Virus record (IMG/VR): IMGVR_UViG_3300005731_000032
Location: 1 to 34,204 of that record
From: a virus
Length of the DNA: 34,204 nt
Reading direction: 5' to 3' (one strand)
In this document: positions 5,721-33,730 of the stretch, in pieces
How the letters are laid out: every line of letters begins with the position of its first letter
How positions within the stretch are numbered: position 1 is the first letter of the stretch
Translations under genes and position numbers: made by a program
The notes under the pieces: model-generated
What the model was told of the DNA's origin: nothing
The model's input: only the letters and a program-made list of their open reading frames with translations
Database searches by the model: none

Positions 5721-6620
5721 ATGGCTAATACTCTCAACAATGTAAATGTCGCGCAGATTGCCGACAGATCCATTCAATACTTGGGGTTGAATTTCTTCCC
5801 CCTTTCCGCGCTATCGACTGACTTTTCTGATGATATCAAATCAGAAGGCGAAAGCGTATCAACTCGAATTCCAGCCGCAATTGCCGCCAAGGATTTGTCG
5901 TCTGGCTATGCTGCTGATGATGTTTCGAACACTGGCGTTACCGTTACTCTGAATCGGTTTCGCGGTCCTGTTTTCGCCTTCACTGATTTAGAGGCTTCGA
6001 AAGCGGGTGACGTCAACTGGCTCAAGGACAACTTCATTGAGCCGGCGATGGAGGGAATGATGAACGACATCTTTCAATATATCTTCGGGCTTGTTACTGC
6101 TGCAAGCTACCCGAACTCAAGTATCATCACTGCTGCCAACATGGATGCAGACGAGCTCGCAGACCTAGGGACAGAGCTTTCAACCTTGAAGGTTCCAAAG
6201 AGCAATCGATCTGCAATCTTGCCCCCTGGTCACTACGGCGGCTTGATCAAGGATTCAATCATTGAGGATGCAAGCGCATTTGGTGACACAGACGCAATCA
6301 AGGAAGGCACGATTCGAAAGGCTCGAGGTTTCCGCATTCACGAGTTCGCCTCCATCCCGAACAACTCTGAAAGCATGGCGGGGTTTGTCTGCCACAAGTC
6401 GGCGTTCGCATTCGCGGCTCGATCGGTTGCCGATCCTACGACAATCATGGGCAACGCTCCGCTTGGTGTTGAAAACCGCGTCGATCCTGTGACCGGATTG
6501 CCGCTTCAGTTCCGGGCTTGGTATGAGCCAAAAGATGGCAAGTATTACTTCTCAATGGGCACTCTCTACGGAGCATCGAAGGCTCAACCAAACGCACTAA
6601 GGCGAATCACTACCGCATAA
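5721..6620 (+). CDS. Major capsid protein, paralogue 1
   Basis: A 299-residue protein starting MANTLNNVNVAQIADRSI. It resembles the P22-coat-like branch of HK97-fold capsid proteins in its N-terminal MANTL opening, the SVSTRIPAAIAAKDLS strand, the TVTLNRF beta segment and the C-terminal FRAWYEPKDGKYYFS block. Its position after protease and scaffold candidate fits the main shell protein. A paralogue of identical length follows after 32 bases, sharing roughly half its residues by eye. Which of the two forms most of the shell cannot be decided from sequence. Confidence 0.85.
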   Translation: MANTLNNVNVAQIADRSIQYLGLNFFPLSALSTDFSDDIKSEGESVSTRIPAAIAAKDLSSGYAADDVSNTGVTVTLNRFRGPVFAFTDLEASKAGDVNWLKDNFIEPAMEGMMNDIFQYIFGLVTAASYPNSSIITAANMDADELADLGTELSTLKVPKSNRSAILPPGHYGGLIKDSIIEDASAFGDTDAIKEGTIRKARGFRIHEFASIPNNSESMAGFVCHKSAFAFAARSVADPTTIMGNAPLGVENRVDPVTGLPLQFRAWYEPKDGKYYFSMGTLYGASKAQPNALRRITTA

Positions 6621-6652: not shown

Positions 6653-7552
6653 ATGGCTAACACACTCAATAAGGTCAATCTTGCTCAAATTGCGCGAGAT
6701 TCAATTGAATACTTCGGGAGCAAACACTTCCCTGTTCAGGCCTTCGCTCAAAACTTTTCTGATGAGATTGCTCAGAAGGGTGACTCCGTCAAGACACGCA
6801 TTCCTTCTGCCATTGCGGCCAAGGACTTGTCAGGCGGGTTCACTGCTGACGATGTTTCAAACACCGGGGTTACTGTAACTCTGGACAAGTTCAAGGGGAC
6901 TGTCTTTAAGTTGTCAGATTCCGAAATCTCCAAGGCAGGCAACGCGCACTGGCTAAAAGACCAGTTCATGGAGCCAGCCAGAGAAGCAACAGTTGACGCC
7001 TTTATGGCCGATGCGTTCGCGCTTGTTCTCAATGCTGCCTACTCAAACAAGACCGTTAAGGTCGCAGCAGATTTCAACGCTGATGCCTTGGCCGATGTCG
7101 GCATTGCTCTTTCTGACCGAAAGGTTCCAAAGGCCAACCGGCACATCATCTTGCCTCCTTCCTACGTTGGGACACTGGTAAAGGATTTGTCTATTGTTGA
7201 CAAGGGTGCGTCAGGCACTGATGACCCAATCAAAGAGAACAAGTTGCTTCGAGCTCGAGGCTTTGACATCCACGAGTATGAGGGCATACCGGCAAACGGG
7301 GAGTCATTGAAGGCGGTGGCACAACATCCTTCCGCTATGGGCTTTGCTGCTCGCCCTGTTGCAGACCCAAACAAAGTCGCAACCCATTCTGGAGTTGAAG
7401 TGATTAATATCACCGAGCCAAACACGGGGTTGCCGTATCAATTTAGAATGTGGTATGAGCGCAAAGATGGCGCACTCTACATCTCAACTGGGTTCCTCTA
7501 TGGGATGTCAGTGGGCAACGAAAACTCGATGCAACGAATCACAAGCGCCTAA
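6653..7552 (+). CDS. Major capsid protein, paralogue 2
   Basis: Second full-length 299-residue capsid-like protein, aligning end to end with the upstream copy without obvious gaps. Conserved blocks include FSDEIAQKGDSVKTRIP, AIAAKDLSGG, ADDVSNTGVTVTL, KVPKANR, the LPP loop, ARGFDIHEY, and the closing YQFRMWYERKDGALY. GAAGG lies about ten bases before the ATG, a better ribosome site than that of copy 1. It may be a second shell component, a minor vertex protein or the dominant capsid protein. Lack of decay in either copy argues that both are used. Confidence 0.85.
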   Translation: MANTLNKVNLAQIARDSIEYFGSKHFPVQAFAQNFSDEIAQKGDSVKTRIPSAIAAKDLSGGFTADDVSNTGVTVTLDKFKGTVFKLSDSEISKAGNAHWLKDQFMEPAREATVDAFMADAFALVLNAAYSNKTVKVAADFNADALADVGIALSDRKVPKANRHIILPPSYVGTLVKDLSIVDKGASGTDDPIKENKLLRARGFDIHEYEGIPANGESLKAVAQHPSAMGFAARPVADPNKVATHSGVEVINITEPNTGLPYQFRMWYERKDGALYISTGFLYGMSVGNENSMQRITSA

Positions 7553-19564: not shown

Positions 19565-19806
19565 TCCACGGAACCAGGAAGGCTAGGCGTCGCTACTCAG
19601 TATTAACGATTGGCAGAGAGGCGCTAGGCTCTGCTATTCGAGCTCTTAAAGACCCGACAAGAGCCACTGACGAGGAGCAAGAGAGACGGTTGAATATCTG
19701 CCGGGGTTGCGATTACTTTGATTCCGGGCGTTGCGCGAAATGCACTTGCCCTGTGGCCTTCAAGGCTCGACTAGAAACCTGGCATTGTATCGACGGTAAA
19801 TGGTAA
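19561..19806 (+). CDS. Small zinc-ribbon protein
   Basis: An 81-residue basic protein. After an Arg-rich N-terminus, residues 47-77 carry paired cysteines: CRGCDYF, then CAKCTCPV, then a final Cys in WHCIDGKW. This pattern is common in small phage proteins of unknown role, often near tail-end or glycan genes. It probably binds one or more Zn ions. It overlaps both neighbours (ATGA with the giant gene, ATGGTAA with the glycosyltransferase), so its expression is linked to both. Confidence 0.7.
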   Translation: MIHGTRKARRRYSVLTIGREALGSAIRALKDPTRATDEEQERRLNICRGCDYFDSGRCAKCTCPVAFKARLETWHCIDGKW

Positions 19807-20666
19807 AGGGACTTGTTATTGAGCGTCGTCGAAGGCTGAGGAAAGACCCGGCCAAAGCCAATCGCTGGCATTTTAATCATGGGCTGGGTGATGCCTTAAT
19901 GCTTCGTTCGATCCTCCCAGCAATCAAGACGCCAATCGTTTTGGGCGTGCCTAAGAGCAAGAGATACTCAGAAGTATTCGAAGGCGTTGACGGAGTGACT
20001 CTCGAAGAGGCTGAAAGTGCTGGCGATGAATTCTATCCAGTAAAATTCCCAGCTGAAGATTGCTGCTTGCCTTTGGATGGAGGGAGACCGGTCAAGCCTC
20101 GGTTCTGCCTAGAGTATGATTTCGAAGTGATCGACCCGACCTTCAGGATCAGACCGCTTGAGCTAGATCTCAGTGATTGCGTGCATCCGGGCACCCTAAA
20201 AGCGAAGTCAATGATCCATGACTACGGCACGAACTACGTCGTGTTTCACGGTCAGGGGGCCAGCAGTCCGTGGCGTAAGGATTGCCCGGAAGAAATTGCT
20301 GAAGCGATTTGCAAATCGATTGTTGAGCGTGGCTATAGAGTTGTAGTTATCCAACCTGATTCTCTTGGCTACGATTTCATTGATGAGAATTACATTTTGT
20401 CGACCGAAGGTCTACCTAGTGGGGCCGCGTGCCTGTGGCATGTCCTTAAAGGGGCTTCAGCGTTCGTCGGGATCGATTCAGGCCCGCTTCATATGGCTCT
20501 GACCATACCCGATCTCGATTGCATGTTCGTGAAGAATAAAATTGACTTCATGCGCTTTTTCTACGACGCGGGCCTCGAGCGAATTCGAGAGATCCTTCCT
20601 GTAGATTCAACCGAAAACGAAACAAACCAAACAATCAGGAGATTCCTATGTTCAAAAAAACCGTAG
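19800..20666 (+). CDS. GT9-like glycosyltransferase
   Basis: A 288-residue protein with the GT-B layout of ADP-heptose-type (GT9) transferases. The N-terminal HFNHGLGDALMLRSILPAI mirrors the GxGD motif, a Rossmann-like second half begins near 145 (NYVVFHGQGASSPWRK), and VGIDSGPLHMALTI near 237-250 matches the donor-binding SGPLH loop. It is somewhat shorter than bacterial heptosyltransferases. It probably moves a sugar onto a host surface glycan or a virion protein. The FkbM gene overlaps its end, suggesting that the two act on one product. Confidence 0.75.
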   Translation: MVKGLVIERRRRLRKDPAKANRWHFNHGLGDALMLRSILPAIKTPIVLGVPKSKRYSEVFEGVDGVTLEEAESAGDEFYPVKFPAEDCCLPLDGGRPVKPRFCLEYDFEVIDPTFRIRPLELDLSDCVHPGTLKAKSMIHDYGTNYVVFHGQGASSPWRKDCPEEIAEAICKSIVERGYRVVVIQPDSLGYDFIDENYILSTEGLPSGAACLWHVLKGASAFVGIDSGPLHMALTIPDLDCMFVKNKIDFMRFFYDAGLERIREILPVDSTENETNQTIRRFLCSKKP

Positions 20667-21409
20667 TCGAAAGCCCCAATGGAGAGATTAGCATGTACGC
20701 CCGCAAGTGCCCCGGAGACCGAGAGGTGTTAAGAGAGGTGATCATGCAGGATGTTTACGGGCTCGATGCGCTCGATAATAAGGGATTTGAGCCGGACGTG
20801 GTGATTGATATTGGGGCGAATATCGGCACTTTCTCCGCAGTCGCTCTCAAGTTCTGGAAGAATGCCAGAATCACAGCGTACGAGCCTCATCCGATCTCAT
20901 ACGGCTTACTCTGCCAGAACCTCTTGCATCACAGGTCGCAAACGAATCTGCATCTTGCCGCCGTGTCTGGTCGGGATTTGCCCAATTCAAATATTCAGAT
21001 CTCCCTGGAAGCCGCGACGGACGCCCCTCATTGCTGGGATCTCAACCAGCGTTCCGAACGTCAAGTGCCTGATCCAACTGCTCAGGGGTGCTGCCAATGC
21101 ATTGTCGAGAATATCAATGATGTGCTTCCTGCAAGCCTCCCAGAGTCAGAGGAATCCAAGGCGTTGCTGAAGGTTGATTGCGAGGGCTCAGAATTCTACA
21201 TCATCGAGGGAGTGGCGGAGGAGCACCTGAAGCGAATTGATGTGATCAAGATGGAAGTGCATTGTTCACAGCTTGCAATCCCTGGCTATCTCGACACGAC
21301 TTGGACCACTTTCCGTGATAAGATCCTAGCTCACTTCGATTGCCCAGAGATCGAATCAAGGACCACGGTGGACAAGGACCAGTTCATTGCGACAGCAATT
21401 CGCCGGTAA
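20648..21409 (+). CDS. FkbM family methyltransferase
   Basis: A 253-residue SAM-dependent methyltransferase. The SAM motif I is VVIDIGANIGTFSAVAL (residues 54-70), followed by YEPHPISYGLLCQNL, where the acidic residue binds the SAM ribose. The late LKVDCEGSEFYIIEGV block is characteristic of FkbM proteins, many of which O-methylate sugars. AGGAG lies six bases before the ATG. With the GT9-like gene it forms a sugar transfer and capping pair, plausibly altering host surface glycans during lysogeny. Confidence 0.88.
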   Translation: MFKKTVVESPNGEISMYARKCPGDREVLREVIMQDVYGLDALDNKGFEPDVVIDIGANIGTFSAVALKFWKNARITAYEPHPISYGLLCQNLLHHRSQTNLHLAAVSGRDLPNSNIQISLEAATDAPHCWDLNQRSERQVPDPTAQGCCQCIVENINDVLPASLPESEESKALLKVDCEGSEFYIIEGVAEEHLKRIDVIKMEVHCSQLAIPGYLDTTWTTFRDKILAHFDCPEIESRTTVDKDQFIATAIRR

Positions 21410-21429: not shown

Positions 21430-21500
21430 ATAGGCTGTAAAGGATTCCTGAAAGATTTTCCGTGTCGTTCTTTAAGTCATTGAAAACCAGGGGTTTGAGA

Positions 21501-21545
21501 TGGTGCGCGGTGGAGGGTTCGAACCTCCGACCCCTACCGTGTCAA
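21501..21545 (-). other. attP core: 3' end of tRNA-Val(GAC)
   Basis: Read on the minus strand, this is the 3' part of a tRNA. It contains an anticodon loop TTGACAC with GAC, stem GGTAG, variable GGGTC, a T-arm GGAGG-TTCGAAC-CCTCC, an acceptor 3' strand ACCGCGC, discriminator A and encoded CCA. The 5' anticodon stem and everything before it are absent, so this is not a working gene. Integrase-borne tRNA 3' ends restore the host tRNA after integration. Its position 186 bases from the integrase start supports attP. Confidence 0.88.
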
Positions 21546-21730: not shown

Positions 21731-22819
21731 ATGCCAGAACCATCTCAAGTAACCCTCAACGGCTCCCTTGTGCGGTGGGAGGCGGACTTTGGGAGGATAA
21801 ACGGCAAGCGTCGCCGAAAGTATTTCAAGACCAAGGCTCAAGCCTCTGAAGCCTTGCGGCTGTTCAGTGAGGAAACCAAAGAGAACGGCAAGGTATGGGC
21901 TCAGCTCTCGCCCAGTAAACGCGCCAAGGTGTCAAGGACTCTCCAAGAGATGGACAAGCGCGGGACGACCCTGGACGCTGTCTGGAGCTATTACAAGGAA
22001 CACCATGCCGCCAAATCAGGCAGAACGCTTGGGGACGTTAGAGATGAATTCTTAGCCTCGAAGCAAGCGTCTGGAGTTTCGGGGCAATATCTCGAGCAGT
22101 TGAGGCTATATTTAAGGCTGTTCGCGCTTGATCGAGAGGGTGTTGACATCGCTCAGATTGACCATTTGGCCGTTGAGCGATGGCTGGCAAGCAGGAAAGA
22201 GGCACCGTCAACCAGGCAAACAGGAATCAACCGGCTCTCTTCATTCTTCTCATTCTGCATTCGTCGGGGATACCTAGACAAGAATCCTGTTGGCAGAGTT
22301 GAGAGGGTTCGAGTGCCTCACATTGACCCTGAAATATTGACTGTTGGCGAGTGCCAGCGGCTGGTCAAAGTCGCGACTGAAACTGACACGGGGATGCTGA
22401 CTTATCTAGGGCTAGCTTTGTTTTGCGGCATTCGACCAGACGAAGCTCTAAGGATTGAGGCAAAGGAAATCGAGCTAGATCGAGGGCTCATATTCCTGAA
22501 AGCTGAGAAATCAAAGGTCAGGAATCGAAGGATTGTCGCGATTACTGAACCCGCGAGAAAGTGTTTTATCGAGGGTGGAGCAGTGCCGAAAGTGAACTTC
22601 AAGAAGCGGTTTAACAGACTCAGGAAGGATGCGAAGATTGAAAAGTGGCCGCACGATGCTTTACGAAAAACGGCGGCATCTCACTTTTACAATCTGTATG
22701 GGATCACCAAGGCAACAGAACAGTTGGGCCACTCTGCTGGCGTTCTGTTGCGGGTTTACCGTGAGCTCGTGAGCAAGGAAGAGACGGGGCGCTGGCTAGC
22801 TATTTCTCCGCCCCTGTGA
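21731..22819 (+). CDS. int: Tyrosine-family site-specific integrase
   Basis: Integrase/recombinase of 362 aa that should recombine attP with a tRNA-Val attB. The N-terminal arm-binding region (residues 1-50) is basic, the SAM-like core-binding domain spans about 98-180, and the catalytic domain covers 200-350. Catalytic residues are visible: Arg235 (FCGIRPDEAL), a beta-hairpin Lys at 260 or 262, His308 and Arg312 (HDALRKT), His334 (LGHSAG) and the nucleophile Tyr343 (RVYREL). All are intact. It converges with a small minus-strand gene whose last bases overlap its 3' end. Confidence 0.95.
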   Translation: MPEPSQVTLNGSLVRWEADFGRINGKRRRKYFKTKAQASEALRLFSEETKENGKVWAQLSPSKRAKVSRTLQEMDKRGTTLDAVWSYYKEHHAAKSGRTLGDVRDEFLASKQASGVSGQYLEQLRLYLRLFALDREGVDIAQIDHLAVERWLASRKEAPSTRQTGINRLSSFFSFCIRRGYLDKNPVGRVERVRVPHIDPEILTVGECQRLVKVATETDTGMLTYLGLALFCGIRPDEALRIEAKEIELDRGLIFLKAEKSKVRNRRIVAITEPARKCFIEGGAVPKVNFKKRFNRLRKDAKIEKWPHDALRKTAASHFYNLYGITKATEQLGHSAGVLLRVYRELVSKEETGRWLAISPPL

Positions 22820-22937
22820 TGCGTTTCAAGCTCTCGTCGATGCTTTTCAATCGGTTGAGAGCGAGCAGTGGGAAAGCGATCCAAAGGCACGAAAAAGCGA
22901 TTCCAGCGATCCAGGCAAAAATATAGAGTGTTGTCAT
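22800..22937 (-). CDS. 45-residue single-span membrane protein
   Basis: A small frame on the minus strand starting MTTLYIFAWIAGIAF. One clear membrane helix at residues 4-28 is followed by a short charged tail (NRLKSIDESLKRITGAEK). AAGG lies a few bases before the ATG. The 3' end overlaps the integrase 3' end by 20 bases, tail to tail. It is the last gene of the leftward operon with the two RHH genes, so it may be expressed from the prophage. Small prophage membrane proteins often block superinfection; that is only inference here. Confidence 0.55.
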   Translation of the reverse strand: MTTLYIFAWIAGIAFSCLWIAFPLLALNRLKSIDESLKRITGAEK

Positions 22938-23062
22938 GGCCTTGAAACATGCAACGGGATAGGGGTGTTGTCTGTTATAAAATTGACATCAAGTTATCCA
23001 CATGGACAGCGAATGACCCACCCCTAAGCCTATCTTGCTAGGCGTGAAAACAAGATGTAACC

Positions 23063-23314
23063 TTACCGTAGTTTCTTTCGTTGTGCCCGTGACCTGGGCG
23101 CAGGCTTTGGAGCTCGAGCCCTGTCAGAGTTCCACCCCATCACTCGACTCACCTCCTCTTGATCAACTCCGGGCAAGCTCTTCCCTATTAGAAGTGCTAG
23201 AGCTTCAGCTTTGTTCAGGTCGTTCTCGAGGCAATACTCATTAAGCTTTTCGCTTAGGTGGGCTGGTAGCCATGCGTTAATCTGAGCCTTTTCTGGGTTT
23301 CGTTGGTTTGGCAT
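23063..23314 (-). CDS. RHH-type DNA-binding protein A
   Basis: An 83-residue protein with a ribbon-helix-helix core: strand AQINAWLP (10-17), helix SEKLNEYCLENDL, turn, helix KAEALALLIGKSL. It has an extended RVMGWNS box and a basic C-terminus (APRSRAQRKKLR). It begins MPNQRNPEK, almost the same as the upstream paralogue, and shares the RVMGWNS box. ATG 23314 is chosen because the paralogue begins with the same MPNQR motif, although the frame is open to 23434. Likely a repressor acting as a dimer on operators in the divergent control region. Confidence 0.75.
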   Translation of the reverse strand: MPNQRNPEKAQINAWLPAHLSEKLNEYCLENDLNKAEALALLIGKSLPGVDQEEVSRVMGWNSDRARAPKPAPRSRAQRKKLR

Positions 23315-23318
23315 GGTT

Positions 23319-23558
23319 CTACTTGTTTGATTTCCGAGGCTTCTTGCTTGGCTTGGCCCGGGGGGGGGTATTGGAGTTCCACCCCATAACTCTCTCGATT
23401 TCTTCAGGGTCGCTGCCGATCTCTCTACCGACAAGCTTAGCTAGTGCCTGGGCTCGCGTTAGGTTAGTCTCGGAGCAATAGGCGTCAAGACTGTCAATAA
23501 GCCCATCAGGCAGGGCTACTGTTATGTTTCTTTTCTCGGGATGTCTCTGATTTGGCAT
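23319..23558 (-). CDS. RHH-type DNA-binding protein B
   Basis: A 79-residue paralogue of the gene four bases downstream of it. The RHH core is ITVALPDGLIDSLDAYC, then NLTRAQALAKLVGREIG. After the shared RVMGWNS box comes a basic tail (RAKPSKKPRKSNK). The start MPNQRHPEK matches the paralogue; a further ATG seven codons upstream is possible. A run of nine C (coding strand) at 23360-23368 lies at residues 64-66. It is the first gene of the leftward operon, next to the control region, and so the leading lysogeny-repressor candidate. Confidence 0.78.
   Translation of the reverse strand: MPNQRHPEKRNITVALPDGLIDSLDAYCSETNLTRAQALAKLVGREIGSDPEEIERVMGWNSNTPPRAKPSKKPRKSNK
23360..23368 (+). repeat. G9 homopolymer inside RHH gene B
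   Basis: Nine consecutive G on the plus strand (nine C in the mRNA sense of gene B) just after the conserved RVMGWNS box. The downstream RHH gene is one frame ahead, and that frame is open across this tract to its own start. Loss of one base, or two gained, joins the genes into a single 164-codon frame. Such tracts are prone to polymerase slippage and also to sequencing error. Confidence 0.85.
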
Positions 23559-23589
23559 TTTTTGAATGTTTCGCGTCAATGTCAGAAGG

Positions 23590-23616
23590 ACTGTTAACGC
23601 CTCTCTTCGTTACAGT
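23590..23616. promoter_or_regulatory. Operator-like dyad at leftward promoter
   Basis: ACTGTTAACG (23590-23599) faces CGTTACAGT (23608-23616): nine paired bases with one extra T in the left arm. The right arm runs into the TATACT leftward -10 candidate on the minus strand. A repressor bound here would block the RHH operon promoter, suggesting autoregulation. Confidence 0.5.
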
Positions 23617-23643
23617 ATACGTTCGTTTTTAGCAATTCTTACA
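23614..23643 (-). promoter_or_regulatory. Leftward promoter candidate for RHH operon
   Basis: On the minus strand, TATACT (23619-23614) is a good -10. A TTGTAA-like -35 lies 19 bases upstream, a spacing longer than ideal. The surrounding 23620-23660 stretch is very AT-rich. It would drive RHH gene B about 55 bases downstream. This is a prediction by eye only. Confidence 0.35.
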
Positions 23644-23669
23644 AAAAATTATTAAAAACTACTTGTGCG

Positions 23670-23707
23670 AGGTGCAAGCACCTATTACTTTTCGGGTGCT
23701 TGCACCT
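23670..23707. promoter_or_regulatory. Paired palindromic operators before rightward operon
   Basis: A perfect 13-bp inverted repeat, AGGTGCAAGCACC (23670-23682) and GGTGCTTGCACCT (23695-23707), separated by 12 bases. Each arm is itself a small palindrome, GGTGC-NN-GCACC, with centres 24 bp apart. In DNA this looks like two operators; in RNA it would be a strong hairpin in the leader of the rightward operon. It ends 28 bases before the first RHH start on the plus strand. The same palindrome type, GGTGTGAACACC, recurs in distant early genes. Confidence 0.7.
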
Positions 23708-23735
23708 GTTGCGGGCAGGGTGATTCCACCGGAAA

Positions 23736-23879
23736 ATGAAAATGAAAAAGAAAAAGCGAAACGTAAGTTTTGAGATAGACGAGAAGCTTTACAGGCTCCT
23801 GAAGAAACGAGCTCTCAACGAGCAAACCACTATGTCAACGATTGCTAGGCAAATGCTTTCAACGGGGTTGCTAGAATGA
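23736..23879 (+). CDS. RHH-type regulator, 47 residues
   Basis: First gene of the rightward operon, below the 60-codon size often used for gene calling. After a Lys-rich start (MKMKKKKR), a single RHH fold is clear: strand NVSFEID, helix EKLYRLLKKRALNEQ, turn, helix TMSTIARQMLSTGL. This is the Arc/CopG pattern, and Arc itself is only slightly longer. ATG 23742 is an alternative start. The end overlaps the next RHH gene by ATGA. It is a likely Cro- or Arc-like partner of the leftward repressors. Confidence 0.75.
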   Translation: MKMKKKKRNVSFEIDEKLYRLLKKRALNEQTTMSTIARQMLSTGLLE

Positions 23880-24043
23880 GCGAGAAGCGTTTGAGCCGAC
23901 ATCCATCAAGCCTAGATAAACACATAGTGCTAAGCGTCCCTCCTTCATGGATGGAGCGCATTAAAGCCATAGCTAAAAAAGAGGGGCACGGATCTTCGCA
24001 TAAAGTAATAAAACAAATCATCAGCGAAGGATTAAGCAAATGA
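23876..24043 (+). CDS. RHH-type regulator, 55 residues
   Basis: Second tiny RHH gene in the rightward operon, coupled on both sides by ATGA overlaps. A polar N-terminus (SEKRLSRHPSSLD) precedes the core: strand HIVLSVP, helix PSWMERIKAIAKKEGH, turn, helix SSHKVIKQIISEGL. Its sequence is clearly different from the first, so the two may form separate dimers with different operators. Likely a transcription regulator of early lytic genes. Confidence 0.72.
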   Translation: MSEKRLSRHPSSLDKHIVLSVPPSWMERIKAIAKKEGHGSSHKVIKQIISEGLSK

Positions 24044-24243
24044 ACAATCCATTTGAAGGTCGCCAGATTGTCAAGAAAGACAAGCTAGCCAAGATACTCT
24101 CAGTATCTGAAAGAACAATAGACGGGTGGGTTGCTCGGCGATCAATCCCTTTCATCCGAATCAACAAGCAGGTGTTAAGGTTCGATGTTGAAGACGTCCT
24201 GAAATCGAAAACCATTAACCCCGTAAAGATCGAAAGCGTATGA
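24040..24243 (+). CDS. Excisionase/AlpA-like HTH protein
   Basis: A 67-residue protein with a MerR-like winged HTH: KLAKILSVSERTIDGWVARRSIPFIR, then the wing INKQVLRFDVEDVLKSK. This is the layout of phage excisionases and AlpA regulators that bend attachment-site DNA or activate excision. It lies third in the early rightward operon, which suits induction of excision on prophage release. The paired TGGTCA repeats at attP are possible targets. Confidence 0.75.
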   Translation: MNNPFEGRQIVKKDKLAKILSVSERTIDGWVARRSIPFIRINKQVLRFDVEDVLKSKTINPVKIESV

Positions 24244-27150: not shown

Positions 27151-27312
27151 ATGACATACCGATACGGACAATTCGAGCGGCTAGCCACCATTAATAGGCA
27201 AGGGCCAATGCCCTTTATTGCACGAGGTGTGAACACCTCAAAAAGATTCGGGCGAAACATCCTGAAAAGAATACATCGAACCTACAACCACGCAGAATCA
27301 TGGACGAAGTAG
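27151..27312 (+). CDS. Small basic protein, 53 residues
   Basis: A frame below the usual size cut-off, starting MTYRYGQFERLATINRQG six bases after ssb. It is strongly basic, with GRNILKRIHRTYNH near the end. The codons for its GVNT tetrapeptide form the palindrome AGGTGTGAACACCT (27225-27238). The end overlaps the next small gene by 13 bases. It could bind nucleic acid. Confidence 0.6.
   Translation: MTYRYGQFERLATINRQGPMPFIARGVNTSKRFGRNILKRIHRTYNHAESWTK
27225..27238. promoter_or_regulatory. Dispersed palindrome, site 1
   Basis: AGGTGTGAACACCT, six-base arms around GA, inside the small basic gene after ssb. It matches the control-region operators at eleven or so positions under the pattern AGGTGYRARCACCT. 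Other exact cores are at 32780 and 33695. Confidence 0.5.
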
Positions 27313-28699: not shown

Positions 28700-30066
28700 A
28701 GCACTACGTCCCAGCATCGGCAACCCTCGAACTAAACGAGGTCACAGAGGCCCCTGGCGAGATGGCACTAATCGGGTGTTGCTTGGTCGGTGGCGTCGAC
28801 ATTTTTCTCGAGGTTTCAAACCTCATCGAACCAGAGGTTTTCGAGCATCAAAAATTCCGAGATGCGTTCGAGCTCATGGCTGAGATGTTGACGGATTCTC
28901 AGGAGATAAACATTGCGACTGTAATGGTCGCTTGGGGGCAAAAAAATGGCTCTCCTTGCCCCCCTTGCGTCTTCCTTTCGTGGGACTTAATTCCGTCCCC
29001 TTTTGCCTATCCTGTCTTTGTTGAGGTCTTAATCGAGTCCTACAACCGCCGTAAAGTGGCCCAGGTTGCCTCACAAGCTCTGAACGCTGCCGCTGAAGGT
29101 GGGAACACCTCAGAGGAATTAAAAGCGATTCTGGACAGCGTTGAGCTAGGGATGGAGCACGGCGCTTTTATGGAAGGAAAGGGGCCTTTGGCTGAGGCTT
29201 GGAGGAAATCGTTAGCTCAACAGATGAAAAAGAGTGACGGGCTTGCTGGTTTGTCGACTGGATTCCGATCGGTTGACCGCATCTCAGACGGCCTTGCTCC
29301 TTCCACGATGTCAGTTGTCGCGGCTCGCCCATCAGAGGGCAAAACGGCACTCGGTTTGTCGTTCCTTTTTCAGATGTGTTTTGTGCAAAAAATGCCCTGC
29401 CTTTTTATCTCCTTAGAGATGACCAAGGAGGCGATTTTGAATCGTCTTGCGGCCAACTTTACAGGGATCGATGCGCGGACGGTGCGGCGAGCCATTTTCA
29501 CCGATGATCAAAAGGTCAAGGTCAAGGCTTTTTACGATCTGATAAGCGAATCGCCCTTCTGGATCTCCTACGCGCCGGGGGCGACTGTCTCAGATATTGA
29601 GAGATTGACCCGTACAGCGGTCAAGCGCCACCAAGTTGTCGCAGTGTTCTTGGATTATATCCAGATAGTCAGATATCAAGGGAAGCTTTCGACATCGCAC
29701 GAGCAAATCAAAGAGACAAGTCAGCGATTATCAGAGATCCCCAAGAGATACGGGCCGCATCTTTGCACGCTCGCACAAGTAAACCGGAAAAGCGCGGAAG
29801 AGAATAGAGCCCCAAAAATCAACGAGATAGCTGGCTCAGATCAAATCGAGAAGGATGCTGAGCTTGTTATGCTCTTGCACCGTCCCAAGAACGACAAGGG
29901 CTACAGAGGGGAAGAATCGATACTCGCACTCGCGAAGGTTAGGGAGGGGGAGCCGTCAGCGGCTAGACTTAAATTTGATGGGCCAAGAGTGAGGTTTTTA
30001 GACCCATCAAGCATCGTGCACGAGGAGGACATACCGACACAGACAGAAATGGAGCATGATCAATAA
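28696..30066 (+). CDS. dnaB: DnaB-type replicative helicase
   Basis: Hexameric helicase of 456 aa. The DnaB N-terminal domain spans about 18-115. The RecA-like motor contains Walker A ARPSEGKT (210-217), FISLEMTKE (238-246) and Walker B VFLDYIQIV with Asp320. It also has LAQVNRKSAEENRAPKINEI, then GSDQIEKDAELVMLLHRP near 395. No helicase-loader gene of the DnaC or lambda P kind is visible, so the initiator may recruit it directly. Codons for residues 134-138 carry an imperfect copy of the dispersed palindrome (29096-29109). Confidence 0.93.
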   Translation: MKHYVPASATLELNEVTEAPGEMALIGCCLVGGVDIFLEVSNLIEPEVFEHQKFRDAFELMAEMLTDSQEINIATVMVAWGQKNGSPCPPCVFLSWDLIPSPFAYPVFVEVLIESYNRRKVAQVASQALNAAAEGGNTSEELKAILDSVELGMEHGAFMEGKGPLAEAWRKSLAQQMKKSDGLAGLSTGFRSVDRISDGLAPSTMSVVAARPSEGKTALGLSFLFQMCFVQKMPCLFISLEMTKEAILNRLAANFTGIDARTVRRAIFTDDQKVKVKAFYDLISESPFWISYAPGATVSDIERLTRTAVKRHQVVAVFLDYIQIVRYQGKLSTSHEQIKETSQRLSEIPKRYGPHLCTLAQVNRKSAEENRAPKINEIAGSDQIEKDAELVMLLHRPKNDKGYRGEESILALAKVREGEPSAARLKFDGPRVRFLDPSSIVHEEDIPTQTEMEHDQ

Positions 30067-32620: not shown

Positions 32621-32932
32621 ATGAGTATTGTTGAGCCAAAGGCTGTTGAATTATTTGAATGCGCTGGATGCGGTTTAGGGGTTAGAAGGCCCCATCATTG
32701 GACCGACAGCAGGGTCGGTAGCTCAGAAGTGTTAGGCGGCAGCTGCGTTTCTGGCCAAGTGGGCGTTCATTATGGAAAAGGTGTGAACACCGTGTTGTGC
32801 AATCGTTGCAAAGCAAAAGCTTACATACTGCTTGCACAATTTGAAGACGAGGAAATATCTAGGGATTGTGCTTGCAGAGTTTTTGACCTAGCTGACGCTG
32901 ATCTAATAAGGCCAATGCGCAATCAATTATAG
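32621..32932 (+). CDS. Four-Cys zinc-binding protein
   Basis: A 103-residue protein with Cys14-x2-Cys17 (CAGC) and Cys60-x2-Cys63 (CNRC), likely one zinc site joining a beta-like core. The frame extends upstream into the beta-helix gene, but ATG 32621, just after that gene's stop, is chosen. Codons for GVNT at 54-57 contain the dispersed palindrome (32780-32791). Possible DNA- or protein-binding role. Confidence 0.65.
   Translation: MSIVEPKAVELFECAGCGLGVRRPHHWTDSRVGSSEVLGGSCVSGQVGVHYGKGVNTVLCNRCKAKAYILLAQFEDEEISRDCACRVFDLADADLIRPMRNQL
32780..32791. promoter_or_regulatory. Dispersed palindrome, site 2
   Basis: Exact GGTGTGAACACC, preceded by A, in the zinc-binding gene. It matches sites at 27226 and 33695 without a mismatch. 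In all three the bases read GVNT in frame. Confidence 0.5.
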
Positions 32933-33406: not shown

Positions 33407-33730
33407 ATGAGAGATTACAAATACAAGGTTGAGGATCTTCACTCCCGCGATGAGGAGCCAGAAGCGAGTCAAGAGAGAGCGGCTTTGATAGCAGCAGCAG
33501 CGGGTCATCTAGGTGAGGTCTACCTGTGGATATGGGGCAAAGAGAAGAGCAGGACAGGGCCTCGATACGCTCGATTTGTGACCATTGCAACGATCATGGG
33601 TAAGATGACACCGGTGCAGGCAGCAAAGGAAGCACGATGCTCACCAGAGGTGATATACATGAATCGAAGGGACTTTTTCGAGAGGTTTAGCGAGGGTGTG
33701 AACACCCAGGGTAAAGGGGGGGAGCAGTGA
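33407..33730 (+). CDS. Small HTH-like protein near late genes
   Basis: A 107-residue protein. Residues 64-95 (KMTPVQAAKEARCSPEVIYMNRRDFFERF) resemble a HTH. A helical Ala-rich segment (AALIAAAAGHLGEVYLWIW) precedes it. Codons for GVNT carry a 14-base perfect-arm palindrome, GGGTGTGAACACCC (33694-33707). Its position at the end of the early operon, just before the packaging genes, is where lambda-like phages keep late-gene regulators such as Q; that role is speculative. Confidence 0.6.
   Translation: MRDYKYKVEDLHSRDEEPEASQERAALIAAAAGHLGEVYLWIWGKEKSRTGPRYARFVTIATIMGKMTPVQAAKEARCSPEVIYMNRRDFFERFSEGVNTQGKGGEQ
33694..33707. promoter_or_regulatory. Dispersed palindrome, site 3
   Basis: GGGTGTGAACACCC, six-base arms around GA, inside the HTH-like gene. 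The 12-base core is identical to the sites at 27226 and 32780. It lies about 500 bases from the right end. Confidence 0.5.

Follow-up and report, generated by a model that had tools for sequence, protein, structure and literature searches.

A candidate lysogeny switch of small RHH proteins, and a GGTG...CACC site that accompanies their family, in a temperate virus probably infecting Verrucomicrobia

The DNA analyzed here (the window, i.e., the whole stretch of DNA) is a virus record from IMG/VR, 34,204 bp long and free of terminal repeats, in which four small RHH ORFs are located between a tyrosine integrase gene and a conserved Xis-like HTH gene. The terminase of this record is distantly similar to that of the Verrucomicrobia phage P8625 (24%), which is the closest isolate in this respect and whose annotation lists neither an integrase nor a repressor; the hosts of this temperate virus are probably Verrucomicrobia bacteria. 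The attachment site and the genes of the locus are listed below, with L008 standing for a relative that is described later.

21500..21545, minus strand: putative attP core, 46 bp, identical in the window and L008
21731..22819, plus strand: tyrosine integrase, int (PF00589, 5.5e-11; phrog_1, 8.6e-36; 71% in L008)
22800..22937, minus strand: TM45, a 45-aa membrane-type protein (76% amino acid identity in L008; dN 0.16, dS 2.6)
23063..23314, minus strand: L2, RHH, 83 aa, with an MPNQR arm (75% over 64 aa in L008)
23319..23558, minus strand: L1, RHH, 79 aa (48% identity to L2; absent from L008/L009)
23736..23879, plus strand: R1, RHH, 47 aa (RHH_1, 0.0059; phrog_876 repressor, 2e-4; no L008 ortholog)
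23876..24043, plus strand: R2, RHH, 55 aa, Arc/Mnt-like (L008 ortholog, 37% identity over 51 codons)
24040..24243, plus strand: HTH_17/excisionase (Xis)-like protein (PF12728, 5e-6; phrog_66, 5e-5; 68% in L008)

The two leftward and the two rightward genes are separated by a single gap of 177 bp (23559-23735), in agreement with an earlier note on this DNA, and the rightward genes of 47 and 55 codons that it had reported are R1 and R2. R1, R2 and the xis-like gene are joined by ATGA overlaps, and TM45, the last gene of the leftward set, falls inside the interval starting at 22800 that the note had described. Small membrane proteins near an RHH gene are also found in L012, L015 and L018; TM45 could have a role in superinfection exclusion. 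It should be noted that L1 contains a run of nine C on the minus strand (23360-23368), and that the loss of one base would produce an in-frame L1-L2 tandem-RHH fusion; slippage or phase variation at this tract is possible, as is a sequencing error.

Single-sequence matches of these proteins to RHH_1 and RHH_5 are weak (E 0.002-0.009, under the Pfam cut-offs), a Pfam search with L2 produced zero matches, and none of the Pfam, NCBIfam and PHROG models claims L1 or L2 at its cut-off. Weak PHROG matches were found for R1, R2 and L1 (phrog_876, 3180, 582, 2639 and 3431, annotated as Arc-like or transcriptional repressor; E 1e-4 to 0.15). The profile of the R proteins (A5) has its best match in Mnt of P22 (1mnt, E=3.5e-6) and also matches pArc, AmrZ and AvtR, and the profile of the L proteins (A4) matches ORF56 and CopG weakly (E=0.006-0.04). 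In the AlphaFold monomers, a strand-length N-terminal arm is followed by two helices, at low-to-moderate confidence (pLDDT 65 for L2, and 76), and the best Foldseek matches were mostly RHH proteins (Arc, CopG, NikR, ORF56, SvtR), none of them with a significant E-value. Structure prediction, which the note had named as a check of the RHH claim, is in line with that claim. Profiles and predicted folds agree in placing the proteins in the RHH (MetJ/Arc) superfamily, with single-sequence scores below cut-off; for L2 this assignment is of moderate confidence.

Searches with L1 and L2 revealed a relative, represented by two records (L008/L009), in which the gene order matches that of the window: int, TM45, L2, R2, xis and the early genes. 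This relative has one RHH gene on each side of the gap, and neither R1 nor L1 has an ortholog there. For L2, R2, xis, TM45 and int, orthologs are present and dN is well below dS, which supports them as real genes. Because L008/L009 carry a single RHH gene on each side, we conclude that L1 arose by tandem duplication of L2 and has since diverged, that R1 is an addition, and that the four-member set is a local expansion of the 1+1 form. The proposal that the switch is built from four RHH proteins thus does not hold as a general design. The divergent order itself recurs in L008/L009, whereas in most relatives the MPNQR gene points in the same direction as the early genes; so far, two phages are known to have the divergent, switch-like form. 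According to the alignment, the putative DNA-contact strand of L2 (Q11/N13/W15) is identical in L008 and L010, and L1 has N/T/A at these positions, compared to Q/N/W in L2 and L008; the contact positions were assigned by alignment to the DNA-contacting strand of the established Arc structure.

Neither L2 nor a close relative of it occurs in any isolate phage. A search of viral contigs with the single integrase protein found none, a two-sequence integrase profile returned the L008/L009 contigs only, and none of the integrase homologs in Verrucomicrobia genomes (L042-L061) has a linked MPNQR RHH gene. A virus with a terminase 87% identical to that of the window (G002, i.e., L004/L019, IMGVR_UViG_3300025769_015018) is without int and the left RHH gene, recT coming immediately after the glycosyltransferase-like gene in its genome; it is probably a virulent sibling of a temperate phage.

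The candidate regulatory sites of the window are as follows (strand is given for promoter elements).

23614..23619, minus strand: possible leftward -10, TATACT (weak TTGTAA-19-TATACT; not confirmed by the promoter scan)
23663..23691, plus strand: putative early promoter P_R, TTGTGC-17 bp-TACTTT, a weak sigma-70 match
23671..23682: candidate operator O1, GGTGCAAGCACC, inside the P_R promoter spacer
23695..23706: candidate operator O2, GGTGCTTGCACC, 24 bp from O1
23719..23730: candidate operator O3, GGTGATTCCACC, 24 bp from O2
27226..27237: GGTGTGAACACC in g40, a dispersed operator-like site that is identical at the orthologous position of L008/G007
29098..29109: GGTGGGAACACC, a dispersed site within a dnaB-like gene; the G007 ortholog keeps GGTG....CACC
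32780..32791: dispersed copy of GGTGTGAACACC within g51
33695..33706: dispersed copy of GGTGTGAACACC close to the end of g54

O1-O3 are GGTG-N4-CACC palindromes placed at exact 24-bp steps in the 177-bp gap, and O1 is located in the spacer between the putative -35 and -10 hexamers of P_R; L008 has two such palindromes, 25 bp apart. P_R was proposed from the alignment with relatives and was not recovered by a consensus promoter scan, its hexamers being weak. The same geometry, with a site between the two hexamers, is found in L008 (TTGCGC-17-TACCTG), in L010/L012/L014 (TTGACA-17-TAT(T/C)TG) and also in L015. The palindrome occurs 7 times in the window versus 0.25-0.38 expected (0 of 100 shuffles), and 4 times in G007 versus 0.2 expected. 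The four sites in early genes share one codon phase, and a shuffle of synonymous codons yielded P=0.002 for at least four sites; in G007, the palindrome of the dnaB-like gene persists despite a residue change from GN to VH. Zero N4 sites are present in 27.5 kb of G002, and zero GGTG...CACC sites in the attP region. The GGTG motif was also considered as a LexA box and rejected, the half-site being different.

The GGTG...CACC site accompanies the same RHH family in other viruses and in bacterial genomes. Relatives of L1/L2 with the MPNQR arm adjoin integrases in viral contigs (L010-L018, L069-L072) and are also found in Verrucomicrobia genomes (LW23 and others); the strict pattern matches only 7 stretches in a 257-Gb genome collection. 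For held-out family members, found by protein search alone, the site is present at most 200 bp upstream of 19 of the 23 RHH genes with an MPxQR arm compared to 0 of the 11 armless genes (Fisher p=5e-6, p-values being overstated by the phylogenetic non-independence of family members). Some of the minus-strand starts in this count are off by 6-200 bases; since the loci of the armless genes affected (L086, L089 and L094) are entirely free of the site, the comparison stands. Among the genes with the arm, no exact upstream site was found in L011, L018 and L035, and only an imperfect one in L013; L035 has no GGTG...CACC site nearby at all. In 11 family contigs, GGTG is the first of 256 half-sites with 40 copies (the next has 16), and in control contigs without the family (153 kb) 1/2/1 sites were found, i.e., the background level. 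One spacer length predominates per genome in most contigs:

Spacer 4: the window, G007
Spacer 5: L015, L028, L029, L083
Spacer 6: L010-L014, L016, L018, L033-L039, L069-L072, L084

L015, a different phage of a different spacer class, has two identical copies of GGTGTGGCCCACC (2735 and 2759), 24 bp apart, which is the same step as that of O1-O3. In the tail of the second RHH protein, palindromes are carried in frame as GGEPP repeats (GGTGGTGAACCACC; L033:1805, 1862; L034:1291, 1348; L036:1347), and the MPNQR RHH at L035:589-1966 has a longer C-terminal part fused to it, which includes an HTH-like segment; its gene is divergent from another small RHH gene.

The family is defined here by the MPxQR arm and the GGTG-N4-6-CACC site, and the window has both. 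In the relatives, sites are located in promoter spacers and just 5' of RHH, int and second-RHH genes. In L010/L012/L014 the operator is present and no RHH protein other than the MPNQR one is seen in the module, which makes this protein the likeliest binder. This fits the specificity of Arc and Mnt, which resides in a short N-terminal region according to the passage of PMC3325190 that cites Knight and Sauer (1989). The family-wide site is the strongest new element of this analysis and provides a testable prediction for each phage. A broader proposal, that the family reads a GGTG code (spacer 4, 5 or 6) through the MPxQR arm and acts as the sole repressor, on early-promoter operators and on intragenic sites for looping or of a stoperator-like kind, is tentative, and we are inclined to doubt it in this full form.

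The integrase and the 46-bp tRNA-like core common to the window and L008 are the features expected of a temperate phage. The putative core adjoins int and TGGTCAA-type repeats; by inspection, it resembles the 3'-half of a tRNA, namely tRNA-Val GAC. A tRNA gene search of the window detected no tRNA gene, an Rfam search of the window gave zero matches, and no empty attB was found in a host. Cargo genes just ahead of attP (19800-21409), named by inspection, are glycosyltransferase-like and FkbM-methyltransferase-like, and L008 has a different glycosyltransferase-like gene at this position. Tandem paralogues (5721-6620 and 6653-7552) occupy the usual capsid position, and both are kept in L005.

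Scans of the early ORFs with family libraries revealed no repressor of the CI, Cro or peptidase type; to that extent the statement of the earlier note that no such repressor is present is borne out. The set that characterizes a CI/Cro-type switch, i.e., an HTH_3/CI repressor, often peptidase-linked, together with Cro, is likewise missing from the early genes scanned. A lysogeny switch of RHH proteins, freed of the four-gene design, is the best reading of the locus, given the int + RHH | RHH + xis module, the tRNA-derived attP and the regular spacing of the operators at the early promoter. The RHH pair is the only candidate for a primary switch because no C2, Cro or ant is found among the early genes, which is an argument from absence. 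We estimate at about 0.6 the probability that this temperate Verrucomicrobia-type phage uses the locus as an RHH immunity/lysogeny switch, with L2/L1 repressing P_R and R1/R2 countering them. We infer that L2/L1 are the binders, that repression results from binding, that R1/R2 oppose the L proteins and that there is no other repressor; an early gene of unknown function could be a further one.

In the lysogen, L2, the conserved partner and putative lysogenic repressor, and its duplicate L1 would bind GGTG/CACC half-sites as RHH dimers, and their presence on O1-O3 would cover the -10/-35 region and the start of P_R, thereby keeping R1, R2, xis and the replication genes off. Upon infection or induction, rightward transcription would produce R1/R2, which would counter L expression in an Arc-/Cro-like role; these opposing roles are assigned by analogy with P22 Arc/Mnt. 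The Xis-like protein, also made rightward, would be needed for excision at the tRNA-derived attP. The minimal switch would consist of one RHH protein per side, as in L008, and would have been expanded to four in the window genome. As for the route of induction, no peptidase was found, and LexA-type boxes do not exceed the background level.

The RHH pair might instead be a secondary, immI-like region that tunes an antirepressor or decision gene, with an unrecognized primary repressor elsewhere (e.g., g34 or g36). The immI region of P22 shares the divergent layout and is secondary to C2/Cro, and several early proteins of the window have no known function. However, the pair analyzed here is at the boundary between int and xis, where the main early promoter lies, whereas that of P22 is in the late region; furthermore, no HTH or peptidase repressor was found among the early genes, and the operator regulon also takes in the dispersed early-gene sites. 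We consider this explanation improbable, although it deserves to be kept in mind. A role of the RHH proteins as DNA-bending or recombination auxiliaries (relaxosome/Xis-like) on att or replication DNA would agree with the adjoining int and xis and with the weak match of MANQR-type relatives to NikA-like mobilization RHH proteins; it is very unlikely in view of the location of the sites described above, at promoters and 5' of genes in relatives and nowhere in the attP region. Antitoxins and plasmid-type partition regulators commonly have RHH folds, and weak BrnA, RelB and RepA-type matches were found, but no toxin or ParA gene adjoins, and an integrase and a tRNA-type attP are present in this phage, thus we give such functions hardly any credence.

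If the RHH lysogeny switch is accepted, tiny RHH proteins appear to replace the usual lambda-type repressor in the choice between dormancy and killing. The immunity repressors of most environmental phages go unrecognized because searches target HTH/CI proteins. The MPxQR-arm RHH proteins provide a sequence-defined putative repressor family with a predicted operator for each member, and thereby make lysogeny control directly testable in the phages of a phylum that has been little studied. The spacer classes 4, 5 and 6, together with the duplicated repressor, represent a natural series for studies of RHH specificity.

Several known systems can be compared to the window. CopG, ORF56 and SvtR, i.e., RHH regulators of plasmids and archaeal viruses, are the best solved-structure matches of the L family; they come from other hosts and contexts and are outside the MPxQR-arm family. 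Lambda CI/Cro and the stoperator systems of cluster A mycobacteriophages are similar to the window in having divergent early-promoter regulators and operators repeated across the genome, whereas their folds differ from RHH; the sites of the window are symmetric palindromes and thus have no orientation, unlike stoperators. The earlier note had offered Arc of P22 as a parallel; the fitter comparison is the whole P22 immI region (Mnt and Arc). There, mnt (83 aa, minus strand) and arc (53 aa, plus strand) are divergent over promoters and operators, and the layout and sizes match those of the window; in both, the rightward RHH gene heads an operon and a small unknown gene lies 3' of the leftward RHH gene. 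Mnt represses arc/ant, and Arc inhibits mnt (PMC11016777). The divergent Mnt-like and Arc-like genes with operators between them are thus found in the window, whereas the control of an ant gene acting on a C2-type repressor is not, since R2 is followed by the Xis-like gene and no ant or C2 was detected among the early genes scanned. The window also differs in its four RHH genes and in its putative operator, GGTG-N4-CACC. In P22, immI is a late-region locus that controls ant and is subordinate to C2/Cro, whereas the RHH genes of the window are beside int/xis with no ant, C2 or Cro seen, which suggests that an immI-type Mnt/Arc pair can serve as a primary switch.
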